A stretch of 64,000 nt of DNA, from positions 62,001 through 126,000 of the forward strand of contig NZ_JNFD01000011.1 in assembly GCF_000756375.1 (NCBI RefSeq), read 5' to 3'. Positions 34,638-41,671 of the stretch are shown piece by piece (position 1 is the stretch's first letter; each line of letters begins with the position of its first letter). Source of the stretch: Sphingopyxis sp. LC81. GTDB taxonomy: Bacteria; Pseudomonadota; Alphaproteobacteria; Sphingomonadales; Sphingomonadaceae. A program made the translations under genes and the position numbers. The notes beneath the pieces were generated by a model that was not told where the DNA came from, did no database searches, and worked only from the letters and a program-made list of their open reading frames with translations.

Positions 34638-34711
34638 TGCCCTGTCGTCTAATGGTAAGACTGCGGTTTCTGATACCGCCTATCGAGGTTCGAATCCTCG
34701 CGGGGCATCCA
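34638..34711 (+). tRNA. tRNA-Gln, anticodon CTG
   Basis: A full cloverleaf can be drawn. The acceptor stem is 34638-34644 with 34701-34707, the D stem GTC/GAC, the anticodon stem GCGGT/ACCGC with loop TTCTGAT, and the T arm CGAGG-TTCGAAT-CCTCG. The anticodon CTG (34670-34672) reads CAG (Gln). The discriminator is T34708 and CCA (34709-34711) is encoded in the DNA. Confidence 0.95.
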
Positions 34712-34835
34712 GAGCTTCCTTCAAATCCCGATCGTTGAAGCGTCCGGCAAGTGCCAGGCGGCCTGATTGCGCGCCCGATAAGCCCCGGCTTGTCCGCCGA
34801 TAGATTTTCTTCGCCGCAAAAAGCGGTCTGCCCCG

Positions 34836-34864
34836 TTGACGAATCTAAAATCAATCGATTAAGT
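34836..34864 (+). promoter_or_regulatory. Candidate promoter for TonB receptor 2 / sulfur cluster
   Basis: TTGACG at 34836-34841, then 17 bp, then TTAAGT at 34859-34864. A second -35-like TTGACA lies at 34864-34869. The -10 match is weak. A start point near 34871 would place the inverted repeat at the 5' end of the transcript. Confidence 0.35.
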
Positions 34865-34871
34865 TGACATT

Positions 34872-34900
34872 GTCATTCGGGACTGGTCGAGACGAATGAC
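34872..34900. promoter_or_regulatory. Inverted repeat GTCATTCG-N13-CGAATGAC
   Basis: Perfect 8-bp arms (34872-34879 and 34893-34900) with a 13-nt spacer, directly downstream of the TTGACA at 34864. The arm length and spacing suit either a regulator operator or a 5' RNA hairpin. Binding protein unknown. Confidence 0.4.
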
Positions 34901-35025
34901 GGGCTCTCCCCCTCGACCCGCGGCTTTTGACCGGGAAGCAGCTTGCTCCGCGTTACCAACGGCTAAAGCGCGTGATGCTCGGGCGACATCGCCAGGCATT
35001 GCGTTCCCCCAGAAGGGGTATTGCG

Positions 35026-35052
35026 ATGCGTATGTGTAACAGCATCAACTAG
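35026..35052 (+). CDS. Candidate 8-codon leader peptide MRMCNSIN
   Basis: ATG at 35026 and TAG at 35050-35052 enclose codons for Met-Arg-Met-Cys-Asn-Ser-Ile-Asn. AGAAGGGGTATTGCG upstream gives a ribosome-binding site at good spacing. It lies 322 bp before TonB receptor 2 and the organosulfate genes. A short ORF with Cys at codon 4 in front of sulfur-scavenging genes suggests a ribosome-stalling leader that senses charged tRNA-Cys (inference). I could not identify a clear pair of alternative hairpins or a U-tract terminator after it, so the mechanism is open. It could also be chance, given its length. Confidence 0.4.
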   Translation: MRMCNSIN

Positions 35053-35195
35053 ATCATCGCCGCGCGTTTGTGCGGGGTAGCGGACCGACCGCGCCCTTCT
35101 CGCTCAGCGGCCTTCCATCATCTCCAGCCGCGACTCCTCACGCGAGACGTTGCGGCCTGACGTCCGGCACCCGAGCGCCGGCGTGGGGAAAAATC

Positions 35196-35375
35196 ATGCC
35201 TTTGCTGACCCAATCCGACCTGTCGGATCTGGCTCGCTATCCTGCGTCCCTGCGCAGCGCCGCCCGCGCGCTGTGGGGAGCGGAGCTGGCGGCGTCCCGA
35301 TCCGGCGCGGCGCACCGCGCCACCATTCATCACATCAAAAAGGGGGCGGGATCACCGCCCGGGGACCCAATATAA
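35196..35375 (+). CDS. Small ORF coupled to TonB receptor 2 (59 aa, uncertain)
   Basis: A 59-residue frame from ATG 35196, preceded by GTGGGGAAAAATC. Its TAA overlaps the receptor ATG as TAATG, the arrangement used for translational coupling. The N-terminal part (MPLLTQSDLSDLARYPASL, then RSAARALWGAEL) looks like an amphipathic helix. The C-terminal part (HHIKKGAGSPPGDPI) is unlikely to fold and comes from the hairpin and ribosome-binding site of the receptor. I recognise no family. It could be a real small protein, an upstream ORF whose translation opens the receptor start, or chance. Confidence 0.35.
   Translation: MPLLTQSDLSDLARYPASLRSAARALWGAELAASRSGAAHRATIHHIKKGAGSPPGDPI
35344..35360 (+). 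promoter_or_regulatory. Hairpin next to the receptor ribosome-binding site
   Basis: GGGCGG (35344-35349), loop GATCA, CCGCCC (35355-35360). It is followed directly by GGGGA (35361-35365), the likely Shine-Dalgarno of the receptor ATG at 35375. Ribosomes finishing the small ORF would have to unwind it, which fits translational control. Confidence 0.45.
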
Positions 35376-37819
35376 TGAACCGTTTCTCTCCCGATCATCG
35401 TTTGAAGTTTCTGCTCGGTGCGGCGCTGTTGCTGCCCGCCGCACCGGCCTTTGCCGCCGAAACCACCGCCGAGACCGGCGCCGCCGCCGACGCCGCGGTC
35501 GACGAAGAAGCCGCCGGCGCGGCGGTCGCAGCCGCCTCCGCCGCCTCGTACGACGGCGCCGAGATCATCGTGTCGGCGCGCCGCCGCGACGAAAGCGCGC
35601 AGGATGTGCCGATCGCGCTGTCGGTCGTCGGCGCGTCGCAGCTCGAGCAGACGGGCAATTATACGCTGACGCAGATTCAGCAGATCGTGCCCAGCCTGCA
35701 GGTGTTCAGCTTCAACCCGCGCAACACCAACATCAATATCCGGGGGCTCGGCAGCAATGTCGCGCTGACCAACGACGGGTTAGAGAACGGCGTCGGTTTC
35801 TATGTCGACAATGTCTATTTCGGCCGCGTCGGCCAGTCGCAGTTCGATCTGGTCGACCTGCAGCAGATCGAGGTGCTGCGCGGGCCGCAGGGGACGCTGT
35901 TCGGCAAGAACACGACCTCGGGCGCGATCAACATCAGCTCGCGCAAACCGAGCTTCGACCCCGAATTTTCGGGCGAGGCGACCGTCGGCGACTATGGTTA
36001 TTACCAGCTGCGCGGATCGGCGTCGGGGGCGCTGGTCGACGATCTGCTCGCGGTGCGCGTCAGCGGCTCGGTGACAGAGCGGCGCGGCTTCCTTTACAAC
36101 GACACGCAGAATGAGCGCGCGCAGGATTATTCGAACTGGAGCGTGCGCGGGCAGTTGCTGTTCACCCCGACCGCCGACCTCGAAGTCCGCATCATCGGCG
36201 ACTTTGCGCGGCAGAAGCAGAACCACGTCCTCAACATCTTCGCCGATTATTTCGGCGCCTATGAGAATGGTGCGGCGATCCCGAACAGCTTCGCCGAGCG
36301 TGCGGCGCGGTTCCCGGGTTACAGCTTCCCGGCGATCGATCCTTTCGCGCGGCGCGGCGAGGCGAACAGCCATTATCAGTCGAACATGGACGGCTATGGC
36401 GTGTCGGGGCAGGTCGACTGGAACGTCGGCGCGGCGAAACTGACCTCGATCACCGCCTATCGCTGGTGGGACTGGAACCCCGCCAACGATGGCGATTCGA
36501 CCTCGCTTCCGGTGATCGTCAAGGCGCAGCAGGCGAACCGTCAGCGCCAGTTCAGCCAGGAAATCCGGCTGGCGTCGGACAGTGACGGGCCGATCAACTA
36601 TGTCGTCGGTGCCTATTATTTCTGGCAGGTGATCCGCGGCAAGGGCGCGAGCGCCTATGGCTCCGCCGCCGCGCTGTGGAACCGCCCCGCGACCTCGCCG
36701 ATCCCGCTCGCCGCGTGGGAAGCCGCGCTCAATGGGTTCGAGGCCAACTCGACCTCGGATCCGCGCACCAAAAGCTATGCGCTGTTCGGCCAGCTCGACT
36801 GGAAATTCACCGACCGGCTGACGCTGACCGCGGGGCTGCGCTACACGCACGAAAAGAAGAGCGGATCGTTCAACCAATTCCATGTCGCGGGGACGAACCT
36901 GTCGACCCTGCCTGCGGGATTGGCGGCACAGGCGGCGGCACTCCGCGCGCAGTTCAATCCGGTCACCAGTTACTCGACGGGGTTCAAGGACAATAGCGTA
37001 TCGGGGCTCGCGACGCTGTCGTGGCAATTCTCGGACGATGCGCTCGCCTATGCGACCTATTCGCGCGGGAACAAGTCGGGCGGGCTCAACCTCACCAACT
37101 TGCCCGCGGGGATCGATCCCGACGTCGCACCCGAAAAGGTCGACAGCTACGAGCTCGGCATCAAGTCGCAATGGTTCGACAAGGCGGTGACGCTCAACGT
37201 CGCGGGCTATTGGACCGAAATCAGCGATTATCAGACCGCGATCACCGAGCAGGTGCCGAATACGGTCAACGTCCGCCAATATATCGCGAATATTCCGGGG
37301 GTGCGCTCGCGGGGTGTCGAAGGTGACCTGAGCTATGCGCCGAGCGACCGCGCGAGCTTCTATGCCTCGGTCGCTTATGCCGACACGACGTACAGCGATT
37401 ACCGCACCGCGCCGCAGGCGCCCGAACGGCTCAACCAGGGGGGCATTCAGGACCTGACAGGCGAGCAGCTGCCCGGCGTGCCGAAATTCACTTACACGCT
37501 CGGCGGCGACGTGTCGGCGCCGCTCGGCAATCTCGGCGGGCGCGACCTGTCGATCTATGCGCATGCCGATTATTCGCATCGCTCGTCGTTCAACACTTCG
37601 TCGAGCGACAGCATCTATGCCGATGTGCCCGCCTATGGGATCGCGAACGCGCGCATCGGCTTCAAGACCGACGACGGATTGTTCGACCTGTCGCTCTGGG
37701 CGCGCAACCTGTTCGACAAGGATTATTTCCAGACCTTGTCGGCGCAGAACACTGGCATCGTCACCTCGCTGATCGGCGAACCGCGCACGATCGGCGCGAC
37801 GCTGCGGACGAAGCTGTGA
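35375..37819 (+). CDS. TonB-dependent outer-membrane receptor 2 (sulfur-cluster linked)
   Basis: An 814-residue outer-membrane receptor. A signal peptide spans about 1-27 (LLGAALLLPAAPAFAAE), an Ala/Glu-rich spacer follows (28-58), then the TonB-box-like AEIIVSARRRDESAQDVP (about 61-78) and the plug with IQQIVPSLQVF and IEVLRGPQGTLFGKNTTSG. The barrel ends in GATLRTKL rather than a terminal Phe, an ending seen in related receptors. Start ATG 35375 fits the signal peptide and the GGGGA upstream. Its place in front of two TauD-type dioxygenases and a sulfatase suggests that it imports sulfate esters or sulfonates (inference). Confidence 0.92.
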   Translation: MNRFSPDHRLKFLLGAALLLPAAPAFAAETTAETGAAADAAVDEEAAGAAVAAASAASYDGAEIIVSARRRDESAQDVPIALSVVGASQLEQTGNYTLTQIQQIVPSLQVFSFNPRNTNINIRGLGSNVALTNDGLENGVGFYVDNVYFGRVGQSQFDLVDLQQIEVLRGPQGTLFGKNTTSGAINISSRKPSFDPEFSGEATVGDYGYYQLRGSASGALVDDLLAVRVSGSVTERRGFLYNDTQNERAQDYSNWSVRGQLLFTPTADLEVRIIGDFARQKQNHVLNIFADYFGAYENGAAIPNSFAERAARFPGYSFPAIDPFARRGEANSHYQSNMDGYGVSGQVDWNVGAAKLTSITAYRWWDWNPANDGDSTSLPVIVKAQQANRQRQFSQEIRLASDSDGPINYVVGAYYFWQVIRGKGASAYGSAAALWNRPATSPIPLAAWEAALNGFEANSTSDPRTKSYALFGQLDWKFTDRLTLTAGLRYTHEKKSGSFNQFHVAGTNLSTLPAGLAAQAAALRAQFNPVTSYSTGFKDNSVSGLATLSWQFSDDALAYATYSRGNKSGGLNLTNLPAGIDPDVAPEKVDSYELGIKSQWFDKAVTLNVAGYWTEISDYQTAITEQVPNTVNVRQYIANIPGVRSRGVEGDLSYAPSDRASFYASVAYADTTYSDYRTAPQAPERLNQGGIQDLTGEQLPGVPKFTYTLGGDVSAPLGNLGGRDLSIYAHADYSHRSSFNTSSSDSIYADVPAYGIANARIGFKTDDGLFDLSLWARNLFDKDYFQTLSAQNTGIVTSLIGEPRTIGATLRTKL

Positions 37820-37930
37820 TGGCGGCGTCCACCCCACTCGCGCGTGACCCACGCGCCTGTCCCATTCGACGACCGCCCGCAAAGGCTCTTGCCGGATACC
37901 CCCGCCGTCCAACCCCCAAAGGAGACTGAC

Positions 37931-38884
37931 ATGACGGACCTTCACAACAGCTATGCCAATGCGCGCGACAAGAATATCCCGCTCGAAATCACGCCGGTGA
38001 CCGGCACGATCGGCGCCATCGTCCATGGTGTCGAGCTGTCGGGCGATCTGCCCGCGGCGGTGGTGCAGGCGATCCAGGCAGCGCTCGTGCGGCACAAGGT
38101 GCTTTTCTTTCGCGACCAGCAGCATCTGACCGATCAGGAGCATGAGGATTTTGCCGCGCTGCTCGGCGATCCGGTTGCGCATCCGACGGTGCCCGTCGCC
38201 GAAGGTTCGCGCTATCTGCTCGAGCTCGACAGCCAGGAAGGCTATGCCGCGTCGAGCTGGCACACCGACGTGACCTTCGTCGACGCCTATCCGAAGGCGT
38301 CGATCCTGCGCGCGCTGACGATCCCCGAAGCCGGCGGCGACACCCAGTGGGCGAATGGCGAGACCGCCTATGAGGGCTTGCCCGAAGTGCTGCGCCAGCT
38401 CGTCAACAATCTGTGGGCGACGCACACCAATCTCTATGACTATGCGTCGATCCTGCAATCGGCGCCCGACGGCGAAAGCGCGGCGAAGCGAATCAAGGAG
38501 CATCGGAACGTCTTCGCCTCGACGGTCTATGAGACCGAGCATCCGGTGGTGCGCGTCCATCCGGTGAGCGGCCAGCGCAGCCTGTTGCTCGGTCATTTCG
38601 TCAAGCAGTTCGTGGGGCTGAACGCGGCCGACAGCGCGCGGCTGTTCCAGACGCTGCAGGATCATATCACCAAGCCCGAAAATGTCGTGCGCTGGCGCTG
38701 GCGTGAAGGCGACGTGGCGATCTGGGACAATCAGTCGACCCAGCACCGTGCGACCGCCGACTTCGGCTTGCAGCGCCGGACGCTGCGCCGCGCGACGATT
38801 TCGGGCGAGGTTCCGGTCGGAATCGACGGGCGCCAGAGCCGCACTGTCCGCAAGGAAAAGGCGGTTCAATACGAACCCGCCTGA
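37931..38884 (+). CDS. TauD/TfdA-type Fe(II)/2-oxoglutarate dioxygenase (first copy, AtsK-like)
   Basis: A 317-residue non-heme iron dioxygenase. The family oxidises taurine, other sulfonates or alkyl sulfate esters, releasing sulfite or sulfate. The iron ligands are visible: SSWHTDVTFVDAYPKASIL with H-x-D (about residue 110-113) and the distal His in DNQSTQHRATADF (about 275). The 2-oxoglutarate-binding Arg is in LQRRTLRRATISG. The fairly long form with PVAEGSRYLLELDS resembles the alkylsulfatase AtsK more than taurine TauD. ATG 37931 has CAAAGGAGACTGAC upstream. It lies 111 bp after the receptor and is probably co-transcribed. The exact substrate is inferred. Confidence 0.92.
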   Translation: MTDLHNSYANARDKNIPLEITPVTGTIGAIVHGVELSGDLPAAVVQAIQAALVRHKVLFFRDQQHLTDQEHEDFAALLGDPVAHPTVPVAEGSRYLLELDSQEGYAASSWHTDVTFVDAYPKASILRALTIPEAGGDTQWANGETAYEGLPEVLRQLVNNLWATHTNLYDYASILQSAPDGESAAKRIKEHRNVFASTVYETEHPVVRVHPVSGQRSLLLGHFVKQFVGLNAADSARLFQTLQDHITKPENVVRWRWREGDVAIWDNQSTQHRATADFGLQRRTLRRATISGEVPVGIDGRQSRTVRKEKAVQYEPA

Positions 38885-39006: not shown

Positions 39007-40668
39007 ATGACCCATGGTTCGCGTTTCGCCCGCTTCCTCCTTGCCGCGCTGATCGGCGCCGCCGCGACGATCGGGTCCGCAGAAACGAAGGAGCGGCGGC
39101 CGAACCTGCTCGTCATCGTCGCCGACGACCTTGGCTATTCGGACCTTGGCGCGTTCGGGGGCGAGATCCGCACGCCCAACCTCGACAAGCTCGCGCTGAA
39201 CGGCATCCGCCTCGCGGGTTTCCACACCGCGCCGACCTGTTCGCCGACGCGCTCGATGCTGCTTTCGGGCACCGACAATCATCGCGCCGGGCTCGGCACG
39301 ATGGCCGAGATGATCCGCCCGAACCAGCAAGGCAAGCCGGGTTACGAGGGCTATTTGCGCAGCGACGTCGCGACGCTCGCCGAGCGGCTGGGCGCCAATG
39401 GCTATCGCACTTTGCTGTCGGGCAAATGGCACCTTGGCCTGACCCCCGAGCAGGATCCGCACGCGCGCGGGTTCGAGCGCAGCTTTGCGCTGCTCCAGGG
39501 CGGGCACAATCATTTCGGCACCGACGCCGACCCCGAAAAGGGCGGGCGGGCAACCTATACCGAACAGGGGAAGCGGCTGACGCGGCTCCCCGCCGATTTC
39601 TATTCGAGCGACACGTTCGCGACGCGGCTGATCGAATTTCTCGGCGAAAAGCCGGCCAACGGCAAGCCCGCGCGCCCCTTTTTCGGCTATCTCGCCTTCA
39701 CCGCGCCGCACTGGCCGCTGCAAGCGCATCCCGAGGACATCGCACGTTACAAGGGACGCTATGACGAAGGGTTCGACGTGCTGCGCGAGCGGCGGTTGGC
39801 GCGGCAGCGCGAGCTGGGGATTCTCGCGCCCGACGTCGCGGCGCACACCCCGCGCAACCGTGACGGCAGCTGGGATTCGCTGACCGCCGGGCAGCAGCGG
39901 CTCGCGGCGCGCAATATGGAAATCTATGCCGCGATGGTCGACCGGCTCGACCAGAATGTCGGTCGCGTGATCGAAACGCTGCGCGCATCGGGCGAGCTCG
40001 ACAACACGGTGATCGTCTTCCTCGCCGACAATGGCGCCGAGGCGCTCGACGTCGAGACCACGGGCGCGCAGATGCTCGCCGCGCCGCTCAAGGGCGCCGA
40101 CAACAGCTTTGCCAATCGCGGCACGGCGGCGTCGTATCTCACTTATGGCGCGGGCTGGGCGCAGGCGGCGACCGCGCCGTCGTGGCTGACCAAGGGCTAT
40201 CAAAGCGAGGGCGGAACGCGCGCGGTCGCGTTCATCAGCGGCGCGGGGATCGCGGCGCGCAAGGGCGCCGAGACGCAATATCTTTCGGTCGCCGACATCG
40301 CGCCGACCCTGCTTGACCTTGCGGGCGCCGATGCCAAGGCGACGCGTGTCGCGGGGCGCGAGGTCGTCCCGATCACAGGGCGGTCGTGGGCCGCCTGGCT
40401 CAAGAACGCCAATGCGCGCGTCTATGATGCGGGCGACGGCGTAGGCGCCGAACTGTTCGGATCGCGCGCCTATCGCCGCGGCGACTGGAAGCTCACCGAT
40501 ATCGGCGACGGCGTCTGGCGCCTGTTCGATATCGCACGCGACCCGGGCGAAACGCGCGACCTGTCGCTCGCCCATCCCGATCAAAAGGCCGAGCTCGCGG
40601 CGGCGTGGGATCGCTATGCGCAGGACGTTGGCGTGATCCTGCCCGACGCCATCCCTTATCGGCCATAG
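39007..40668 (+). CDS. Type I sulfatase (arylsulfatase family), exported
   Basis: A 553-residue sulfatase. A signal peptide spans 1-25 (FLLAALIGAAATIGSAE). Family motifs: LLVIVADDLGYSDLGAFGG with the calcium-binding Asp pair (about residues 36-54), the active-site signature CSPTRSMLLSG (Cys78), which must be converted to formylglycine, GKWHLGL (about 140) and VFLADNGAEAL (about 338). The CxPxR form needs a formylglycine-generating enzyme; none is in this window. It hydrolyses sulfate esters, probably in the periplasm, and frees sulfate. It sits between two TauD-type dioxygenases, consistent with use of organic sulfates as a sulfur source. The ribosome-binding site is weak (GAAAG). Confidence 0.94.
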   Translation: MTHGSRFARFLLAALIGAAATIGSAETKERRPNLLVIVADDLGYSDLGAFGGEIRTPNLDKLALNGIRLAGFHTAPTCSPTRSMLLSGTDNHRAGLGTMAEMIRPNQQGKPGYEGYLRSDVATLAERLGANGYRTLLSGKWHLGLTPEQDPHARGFERSFALLQGGHNHFGTDADPEKGGRATYTEQGKRLTRLPADFYSSDTFATRLIEFLGEKPANGKPARPFFGYLAFTAPHWPLQAHPEDIARYKGRYDEGFDVLRERRLARQRELGILAPDVAAHTPRNRDGSWDSLTAGQQRLAARNMEIYAAMVDRLDQNVGRVIETLRASGELDNTVIVFLADNGAEALDVETTGAQMLAAPLKGADNSFANRGTAASYLTYGAGWAQAATAPSWLTKGYQSEGGTRAVAFISGAGIAARKGAETQYLSVADIAPTLLDLAGADAKATRVAGREVVPITGRSWAAWLKNANARVYDAGDGVGAELFGSRAYRRGDWKLTDIGDGVWRLFDIARDPGETRDLSLAHPDQKAELAAAWDRYAQDVGVILPDAIPYRP

Positions 40669-40777
40669 GTCGCGCATATCATGCGCTTCGGCGCGTTAGG
40701 GCTTGTCAATCATATCAGTTGAGTTACTTTCGCTGTTCCGGGAATATTTCCGAATCGAACGAGCGAAAGGACCGCTT

Positions 40778-41671
40778 ATGGCCACGCAGCTGAACACCCC
40801 CGACCTGTTCGAGACCGCGCGATCGCTCGGCGTTTCGATCTCGCCGTCGACTCCGACGATCGGGGCGGAGATCGGCGGGCTCGATCTCGATCGCCCGCTG
40901 TCGTCCGAAGAGGGTGATCTGCTGCGCGCCGCATGGCTGCGCTTCAAGGTTATCTTCTTCCGCGATCAGGACATCAGCCACGAAAGCCATGTCCGACTCG
41001 GCCGCCTCTTCGGCGAACTCGAAGGGCATCCGGTGATCCCGTCGGTCGAGGGCTATCCCGAAATCCTCAAGATCGAAGGCGTCGAGGGCGTCCAGCTCAC
41101 CGCCGAAACGCTTGGCGCTTTCCAGGCGTATAACAAATGGCACACCGACGTGACCTTCCGCGAGCGGCCGTCGATCGCGTCGATCCTGCGCGCGCGCCAC
41201 CTGCCGCCGCTCGGCGGCGACACGATGTGGGCCGACACCGTCGCCGCTTACGCCGGGCTGCCGCAGCCGGTGAAGGACCGGATCGACGGACTCGAGGCCG
41301 AACATGACATCGTGCGCAGCTTCGGCGGCCGCGTCACCGAGGAAAAGCGCGCGCAACTCGCTCGCGACTTCCCGCCGGTGCGCCATCCCGTCGTGCGCTC
41401 GCATCCCGAAACGGGCGAGAAGATCCTCTACGTCAACTACACCTTCACCAGCCGTATCGTCGGCGTGAGCGAGGAAGACAGCGACAGCCTGCTTCGCTTG
41501 CTGTTCGACCGGATCAAGGTGCCCGAATATCAGGTGCGTTTCCGCTGGACCCCGAACGCGATCGGCATCTGGGACAACCGTTCGACCCAGCATTATGCCG
41601 TCGGCGATTATTGGCCCGAATATCGCGCGCTCGAACGCGTGACGGTGTCGGGCGATGTGGTAACCCGATGA
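40778..41671 (+). CDS. TauD/TfdA-type Fe(II)/2-oxoglutarate dioxygenase (second copy)
   Basis: A 297-residue dioxygenase of the same family as the gene at 37931, but clearly different in sequence. Iron site: NKWHTDVTFRERPSIASIL (H-x-D at about residue 123-125) and DNRSTQHYAVGDYWPEYRAL with the distal His and the 2-oxoglutarate Arg nearby (about 270-288). The opening IGAEIGGLDLDRPLS is typical of TauD. The start at ATG 40778 has GCGAAAGGACCGCTT upstream; a TTG at 40703 would add a non-family tail. Its stop overlaps the next ATG (ATGA). Two non-identical dioxygenases in one cluster suggest a split substrate range. Confidence 0.92.
   Translation: MATQLNTPDLFETARSLGVSISPSTPTIGAEIGGLDLDRPLSSEEGDLLRAAWLRFKVIFFRDQDISHESHVRLGRLFGELEGHPVIPSVEGYPEILKIEGVEGVQLTAETLGAFQAYNKWHTDVTFRERPSIASILRARHLPPLGGDTMWADTVAAYAGLPQPVKDRIDGLEAEHDIVRSFGGRVTEEKRAQLARDFPPVRHPVVRSHPETGEKILYVNYTFTSRIVGVSEEDSDSLLRLLFDRIKVPEYQVRFRWTPNAIGIWDNRSTQHYAVGDYWPEYRALERVTVSGDVVTR

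Follow-up and report, generated by a model that had tools for sequence, protein, structure and literature searches.

A divergent SAM-II-type RNA as the probable gate of an eight-codon leader frame ahead of a Sphingopyxis sulfur cluster

The leader frame and the genes behind it

The region described here belongs to a 64,000-nucleotide stretch of the Sphingopyxis sp. LC81 genome (contig NZ_JNFD01000011.1, positions 62,001 to 126,000), hereafter the window. A short open reading frame (mini-ORF) with a Shine-Dalgarno (SD) sequence stands ahead of a sulfur cluster, as follows (window coordinates):

34836..34864, + strand: putative promoter-like pair TTGACG-17 nt-TTAAGT, picked by eye and kept in many Sphingopyxis-type leaders
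35013..35018, + strand: Shine-Dalgarno AAGGGG of the mini-ORF, read in the window and in relatives too
35026..35052, + strand: mini-ORF MRMCNSIN (ATG CGT ATG TGT AAC AGC ATC AAC TAG), kept in relatives
35196..35375, + strand: 59-aa small protein (P0001), whose TAA overlaps the receptor ATG
35375..37819, + strand: TonB-dependent receptor (Pfam Plug and beta-barrel)
37844..38884, + strand: TauD-type dioxygenase (Pfam)
39007..40668, + strand: sulfatase (Pfam)
40703..41671, + strand: TauD-type dioxygenase (Pfam; NCBIfam taurine dioxygenase at 286 bits, below the cut-off of 313)

The original prediction had described an eight-codon ATG-to-TAG frame with a good ribosome-binding site, 322 bp upstream of a TonB receptor and its sulfur cluster. 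The exact frame and its AAGGGG, whose 3′ end lies 7 nt from the ATG, are as described, and 322 nt separate the mini-ORF stop from the receptor ATG (35375). Pfam supports the cluster as well, in the order TonB receptor, TauD, sulfatase, TauD, and places an FAD/NAD(P) protein after the second TauD. The promoter-like pair at 34836-34864 was not recovered by a strict promoter scan; some relatives show an inverted-repeat-like -10 region (TCTATC TTTTAA GTAGA) at which a repressor may bind. A tRNA gene lies upstream of the leader at 34638-34708 (Rfam RF00005, 56.9 bits).

The 59-aa ORF, which had been overlooked, begins 143 nt past the mini-ORF stop and has its own SD-like GTGGGGA. Codon position 3 holds 607 of its 848 pairwise differences (first 28 codons, 17 sequences, with L043 excluded as the wrong ORF). 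The protein has 71 database relatives, 64 of them 56-60 aa long (range 51-92), and no match in Pfam or NCBIfam; its motif would assign it to a YPxSLQxAAxALWG type. The DNA of 35208-35270, at the start of this ORF, is nearly identical among Sphingopyxis-type leaders.

Relatives of the receptor were found at 52 loci, and the upstream DNA was examined in 48 of these (L075 and L081-L083 excluded). Seventeen close relatives (14 have Sphingopyxis in their titles) carry an MRMC-like eight-codon frame at the equivalent position. Together with the window they form the 18 Sphingopyxis-type leaders, in which codon 4 is TGT without exception, codon 3 is ATG in 16, codons 5-8 are variable, and a stop is always retained (TAG 12, TAA 5, TGA 1). 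The original prediction had looked to orthologous leaders for a conserved short Cys-containing frame with synonymous changes; such a frame is indeed conserved (18/18), but a synonymous change of the Cys codon is never seen. In other genera the homologous frame differs, for example MHKPMTRA, MQIMMMRA, MRTIMCKT, and MRQYDHKRRP. One locus titled Arthrobacter sp. TPD3018 (L068, QDFQ01000007.1) encodes a receptor 53% identical to that of the window; mislabelling or contamination seems likely.

A SAM-II-type RNA upstream of the leader frame

The most conserved leader DNA lies upstream of the mini-ORF, where bases 34919-34971 read as a divergent SAM-II-type aptamer that the original prediction had missed. 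Its predicted elements are:

34919..34923, + strand: P1 5′ arm CGCGG, from leader alignments
34925..34930, + strand: U-rich third strand UUUUGA, aligned to the SAM-II/SAM-V triplex strand, with UUU in 62-63 of 63 rows
34943..34946, + strand: P2 5′ arm UUGC (pseudoknot), in 63/63 rows
34948..34952, + strand: P1 3′ arm CCGCG, from leader alignments
34962..34971, + strand: P2 3′ arm GC(U)AAA with extension GCGC; GCTAAAGCG in 63/63 rows

A regular expression for the core, CGCGG-N2-TTTGA ... CTTGC-N-CCGCG ... GCTAAAG, matched 37 of the 48 loci and the window, and 30 distinct core copies were aligned. A covariance model built solely from sphingomonad leaders (R1) extended this set. The 63 aligned rows comprise 61 R1-type copies (the window, 50 of 74 loci from its taxonomic family, and 10 of 11 from its taxonomic class) and two SAM_alpha sites beside such copies. 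Omitted loci were mostly near-duplicates; L174 and L185, which are not duplicates, break the core and depart from the predicted contact bases. In L185, GCTGATG replaces GCTAAAG and UUGC reads AUGC, possibly reflecting an altered ligand or a dead copy.

Passages of PMC6061858 give U8, U9, U20, U47, A48, and A50 as SAM-binding or pocket residues of SAM-V and state that the SAM-II core superimposes closely on SAM-V. We infer that these residues map to the UUU strand, the UU of UUGC, and the bulged U and A run of GC(U)AAA, the last two being predicted SAM-contact bases. The predicted contact columns are conserved in 62-63 of the 63 rows, as expected of a SAM-II aptamer. P1 and P2 can both form and are retained in all 63 rows, yet they scarcely vary, which gives the aptamer fold little support from covariation.

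Rfam at its gathering scores recognized the tRNA and nothing else in the window, and ten relatives yielded no SAM aptamer at these scores. Under a relaxed threshold, positions 1-79 of SAM_alpha (RF00521) align to 34910-34985 with 12.1 bits (E 4.8) against a gathering score of 36 bits. Such a match proves nothing by itself, and since the curated score is missed, the element is named here a divergent SAM-II-type RNA and not filed as an RF00521 member.

An unfiltered R1 search of 30 known SAM-II loci gave 12 matches at E<=1, seven on the SAM-II site and five elsewhere; the top two fall on that site, and 7 of the 30 sites were detected. Among genomes of the window's taxonomic class, R1 at E<=1e-4 matched 44 of 240, namely the window's own and 43 of 239 others, all outside its family. 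On the R1 site of loci L222-L229, SAM_alpha scores 22-34 bits in 8/8, below its cut-off; in L220, L221, and three sphingomonad loci it did not match the R1 copy at E<=1. A SAM_alpha match adjoins the R1 copy in L220, L221, L224, and L227 in a tandem arrangement with starts 110-160 nt away, and R1 detects the neighbouring aptamers of L220 and L221 weakly (21-22 bits). Of six proteins scanned downstream of the class copies, three exceed NCBIfam cut-offs (MetX, CysG, and O-succinylhomoserine sulfhydrylase) and two have their best matches below cut-off, to MetN (411/500 bits) and O-acetylhomoserine sulfhydrylase (490/495, protein incomplete), which makes five with matches to methionine or sulfur families. 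The sixth, in L229, had no family match. A further ORF (137 aa) separates the aptamer from the sulfhydrylase in L220. Between the tandem aptamers of L220 and L221, ahead of the sulfhydrylase genes, a terminator-like hairpin with a U-run can be picked out by eye.

RF00521 itself reaches its cut-off in 55 of 142 genomes of the class versus 0 of 149 of the family. Below the cut-off, these 149 family genomes yielded two matches, one of which (L084) is a genuine copy of the window-type RNA; L085 is an RF00521 match from the same search. Passages of a methionine-regulon survey that included 7 Sphingomonadales genomes place SAM_alpha in Rhizobiales and Rhodobacterales only (PMC4239095). A report of the window-type RNA element was not found among the literature matches listed, subscription papers lying outside that coverage. 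Judged from sequence, the reverse R1 search, the class copies, their co-location with SAM_alpha, and the genes downstream lead us to say that the RNA is related to SAM-II.

The window RNA resembles SAM-II (RF00521) in its end-to-end alignment, its P1/P2 H-type pseudoknot layout, its UUU strand, UUGC, and GC(U)AAA, and the methionine and sulfur genes downstream. It differs in its low score, its short loop, its P1 of CGCGG/CCGCG, the start-codon switch and mini-ORF behind it, and its occurrence in a family of which 149 genomes gave no RF00521 match at cut-off. With SAM-V, a translational off-switch that hides the SD according to passages of PMC6061858, it shares the predicted SAM pocket. In SAM-V the helix that masks the SD is short and adjoins the pseudoknot, whereas in the window a separate sequestor and anti-sequestor lie between aptamer and SD; in L183 and L184, by exception, the SD follows the aptamer immediately. 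The SAM-II RNA of S. meliloti metA likewise carries an SD/AUG1 unit before the true start; its AUG1 is in frame with metA and naturally unused, whereas the window AUG opens a closed 8-codon ORF (passages of PMC9373788).

Predicted switch hairpins, copies and layouts

Between the aptamer and the leader frame, two alternative hairpins are predicted, and a further one follows the frame:

34970..34979, + strand: P3 5′ arm (anti-sequestor); 34970-34971 also belong to the P2 extension
34995..35004, + strand: P3 3′ arm, of which 34996-35003 doubles as the outer 5′ arm of P4
34996..35029, + strand: P4 sequestor hairpin, in which 34996-35003 and 35007-35010 pair with 35015-35018 and 35022-35029
35074..35097, + strand: conserved hairpin 3′ of the mini-ORF, with no U-run

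P4 contains the SD and AUG of the mini-ORF, and P3 and P4 have one arm in common and are mutually exclusive. Both were tested in 39 non-redundant loci drawn from 65, with L175, L183, L184, and L185 omitted (layout absent or strongly varied). Native arms had mean energies of -18.5 kcal/mol for P3 and -15.3 for P4, versus -15.9 and -13.1 kcal/mol for cross-locus arms, and none of 20000 permutations attained the native mean in either case. This result concerns the mean, the native partner ranking best in just 2 of 39 loci for P3 and 2 of 39 for P4, and kinship was handled solely by dropping loci with >70% identical middle segments. On this measure, both pairings covary between loci.

P3-only and P4-only folds lie <=5 kcal/mol apart in 32 of the 39 loci, and a P4-type fold with >=5 pairs across SD/AUG is possible in all 39. 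When four instead of two bases after GCUAAA were barred from pairing, the predicted fold changed from P3 to P4 in 14 loci and in the window, did not flip in 25 (10 remaining P3, 15 remaining P4), and never went from P4 to P3; these flips favour, by implication, a SAM-off polarity. Barring two bases between SD and AUG converted P4 to P3 in 11/39. When all bases are free to pair, the window is predicted to adopt a third, mixed structure, and in its P3 fold a CCCC:GGGG hairpin still masks part of the SD, with the AUG in a small loop. In the hairpin at 35074-35097, two pairs change on both sides, in 3/18 and 6/18 sequences. A scan of 34700-35400 found no intrinsic terminator-like site on the + strand and one on the - strand (35360-35344). 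The original prediction had also seen no clear terminator/antiterminator pair, and this part of an attenuator is missing here.

Within the family, judged from its named members to be Sphingomonadaceae, R1 matches 90 of 397 genomes at E<=0.01. The loci fetched were the best 74 matches beyond the window's own copy; the best 70 further copies reach E<=4.3e-7, one of them (L174) decayed, and the matches L186-L189 were read as chance. These five were removed before the start-picking, P3/P4, Cys/Met, and frame-control analyses, and in the last three the mini-ORF start of L156 was assigned by hand. The window's genome has a second copy (L121, C1:57018-57090), which precedes TauD, an SsuA-family protein, an ABC permease, and an ABC ATPase and whose mini-ORF (MHILRNNP...) lacks Cys. 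The mini-ORF DNA pattern with <=1 mismatch occurs at a single place in that genome, so it was through the RNA model, not the ORF, that the second copy came to light. Neighbouring genes were tallied via GC3-filtered ORFs and tblastn; picking neighbour ORFs by length was dropped, as antisense frames misled. By tblastn, the 74 five-kb loci contain receptor relatives (34), TauD (26), sulfatase-like genes (8), and a sulfonate ABC set (2), and many match none of the 14 queries.

The copies fall into layout classes A to D. Class A comprises aptamer, switch, and a mini-ORF of 5 to 26 codons (longer in L132), mostly with receptor or TauD genes behind. In class B (16 loci), aptamer and switch stand directly before a small protein that as a rule ends in FWxRLG(L/I). 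Class C has a longer leader, for example MTEIMMCGSTCSSAA, MAMTNNNHPTRSALRLCMMCSRAA, or MSASLPYPVPVHRARRCRCGC, and in class D (L183, L184) the SD comes immediately after the aptamer, the leaders being MRSALLSALLTPAMGCCR and MRVLPFSGRAQTSCCRCRVI; behind each of the eight class C/D leaders lies a small YPxSLQxAAxALWG-type protein. As SAM-II RNAs do, the copies precede methionine, SAM, or sulfur genes, many class B loci having other neighbours. Two regex-selected sets of the small proteins (13 and 16) hold 5 Cys+Met in 748 residues and 7 in 858, where about 18 and 21 are expected, a modest depletion. At L160-L169, L171-L173, L176, L177, and L180, proteins of about 50 aa share the motif PH(P/S)SW, mostly with the FWxRLG(L/I) end; two members tested had no Pfam or NCBIfam match, and among the genes that follow are those for class-I glutamine amidotransferase (L162, L166) and Ser_hydrolase (L172) proteins.

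In 45 class-A family loci, the frame opening at the ATG with the best SD-like match has a median of 8 codons and is <=14 codons long in 41, versus a median of 16 codons in the other two frames (<=14 in 20/45 and 19/45). By this comparison the occurrence of the mini-ORF exceeds chance, and its conserved length and stop are good evidence for a putative translated short frame. At the sequence level it is a short ORF with an SD and a conserved start and stop, as an attenuator leader would have.

Proposed gating and competing explanations

On these grounds, a divergent SAM-II-type RNA probably gates the mini-ORF, its SAM-bound state likely favouring the hairpin over ribosome-binding site and start codon. 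The ligand of the aptamer at 34919-34971 would be SAM. Its binding would let the pseudoknot P2 extension hold the bases after GCUAAA, so that P4 forms and SD and AUG are hidden; high SAM would thus mean off, the genes being shut when sulfur is plentiful. Low SAM, during sulfur shortage, would permit translation of the leader ORF, which in turn would allow expression of the 59-aa protein and of the receptor, TauD, and sulfatase genes. The route from an eight-codon ORF to genes 143-322 nt further on may be an effect of leader ribosomes on RNA folding, lost polarity, or a standby site, these being the candidates in view of the missing + strand terminator.

The original prediction held that scarce charged tRNA-Cys stalls ribosomes at codon 4, whereupon the leader refolds and the cluster is switched on. 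Actinobacterial Cys leader-peptide attenuators, too, place a short Cys-containing leader before sulfur genes; to our knowledge no riboswitch accompanies them, and unlike in those systems Cys is not conserved across the sphingomonad leader family. The short ORF ahead of sulfur genes and the TGT at codon 4 of every Sphingopyxis-type leader fit that prediction, as does the Cys content of the leaders: in the 516 codons of 52 of the 53 leaders (L132 excluded as too long), Cys occurs 33 times where nearby genes lead one to expect 3.5 (Met 40 times versus 8.9), and the class C/D leaders, behind the same aptamer, hold 17 Cys in 157 codons versus 1.1 expected. The TGT never gives way to TGC in 18 leaders, however, so the conserved codon is no proof of a Cys signal; constraint at the RNA level may account for it. 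Cys is present in just 16 of 44 distinct class-A leaders and is missing from the mini-ORF of the genome's second copy. Across frames 0/+1/+2, class-A leaders have 16/18/5 Cys codons of 420 each, and because frame +1 has as many as frame 0, the class-A Cys enrichment is weakened as a signal. Met codons number 30/1/8 there and 12/0/4 of 157 in class C/D, so that the Met enrichment is frame-specific and the Cys enrichment of class A is not. In class C/D, where every one of the eight leaders has between one and three Cys, for the most part towards the end, the Cys counts of 17/12/4 are suggestive only. The scan of 34700-35400, which found no + strand terminator, also speaks against cysteine attenuation acting alone, and such attenuation leaves the conserved upstream RNA unexplained; we consider it very improbable. 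What stands of the original prediction is the conserved Cys-containing ORF before sulfur genes; the main conserved sensor appears to be the SAM-II-like RNA upstream.

Two other readings keep that RNA and change its output or its ligand. The SD within P4 could be a SAM-controlled landing site for ribosomes bound for the 59-aa ORF or the receptor, with the mini-ORF incidental. The position of the SD inside the sequestor is compatible with this, and in the S. meliloti metA riboswitch the SD is required although translation begins 74 nt downstream, according to passages of PMC9373788. Retention of the mini-ORF stop in all 18 leaders by three different stop codons, a frame shorter than the control frames, and the 59-aa ORF's own GTGGGGA and its start 143 nt past that stop speak against it, and we regard it as unlikely. 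Slightly less likely again is that the SAM-II scaffold now binds SAH, methionine, another sulfur metabolite, or a protein. The score far under the SAM_alpha cut-off and the altered loop L1 and P2 extension would agree with such a drift, as would the receptor, TauD, and sulfonate genes, unusual SAM-II targets beside the methionine genes named in passages of the regulon survey (PMC4239095); the predicted SAM-contact positions are nonetheless retained in the 63 aligned rows, and other copies precede MetX, methionine sulfhydrylase, and MetN-like genes. Most likely, then, the upstream SAM-II-type RNA is the main sensor and the mini-ORF its first output.

On top of this gate, the Met and Cys codons may add an optional second check on charged tRNA. 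Cysteine sensing as such a second layer is a tentative idea, and we hold equally doubtful the two-lock AND gate in which the riboswitch permits leader translation and the Met/Cys codons then test charged tRNA, the sulfur-scavenging genes opening only when SAM and cysteine are both short. Leaders of the mgtA type similarly unite a metal-sensing RNA and a leader ORF in one 5′ region, with another ligand, sequence, and host.

The window-type RNA offers sphingomonads a likely SAM sensor in a family where RF00521 reaches its cut-off in none of 149 genomes. The regulon to which it points takes in receptors for uptake, enzymes for taurine and sulfonates, and two small-protein families without a name. 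Should the leader ORF indeed be gated, translation of a regulatory peptide would here be under the natural control of an RNA that senses a metabolite; if the two-lock reading were also true, a riboswitch and a leader-peptide attenuator would form an AND gate within a single 5′ region, and sphingomonads at large would carry it.
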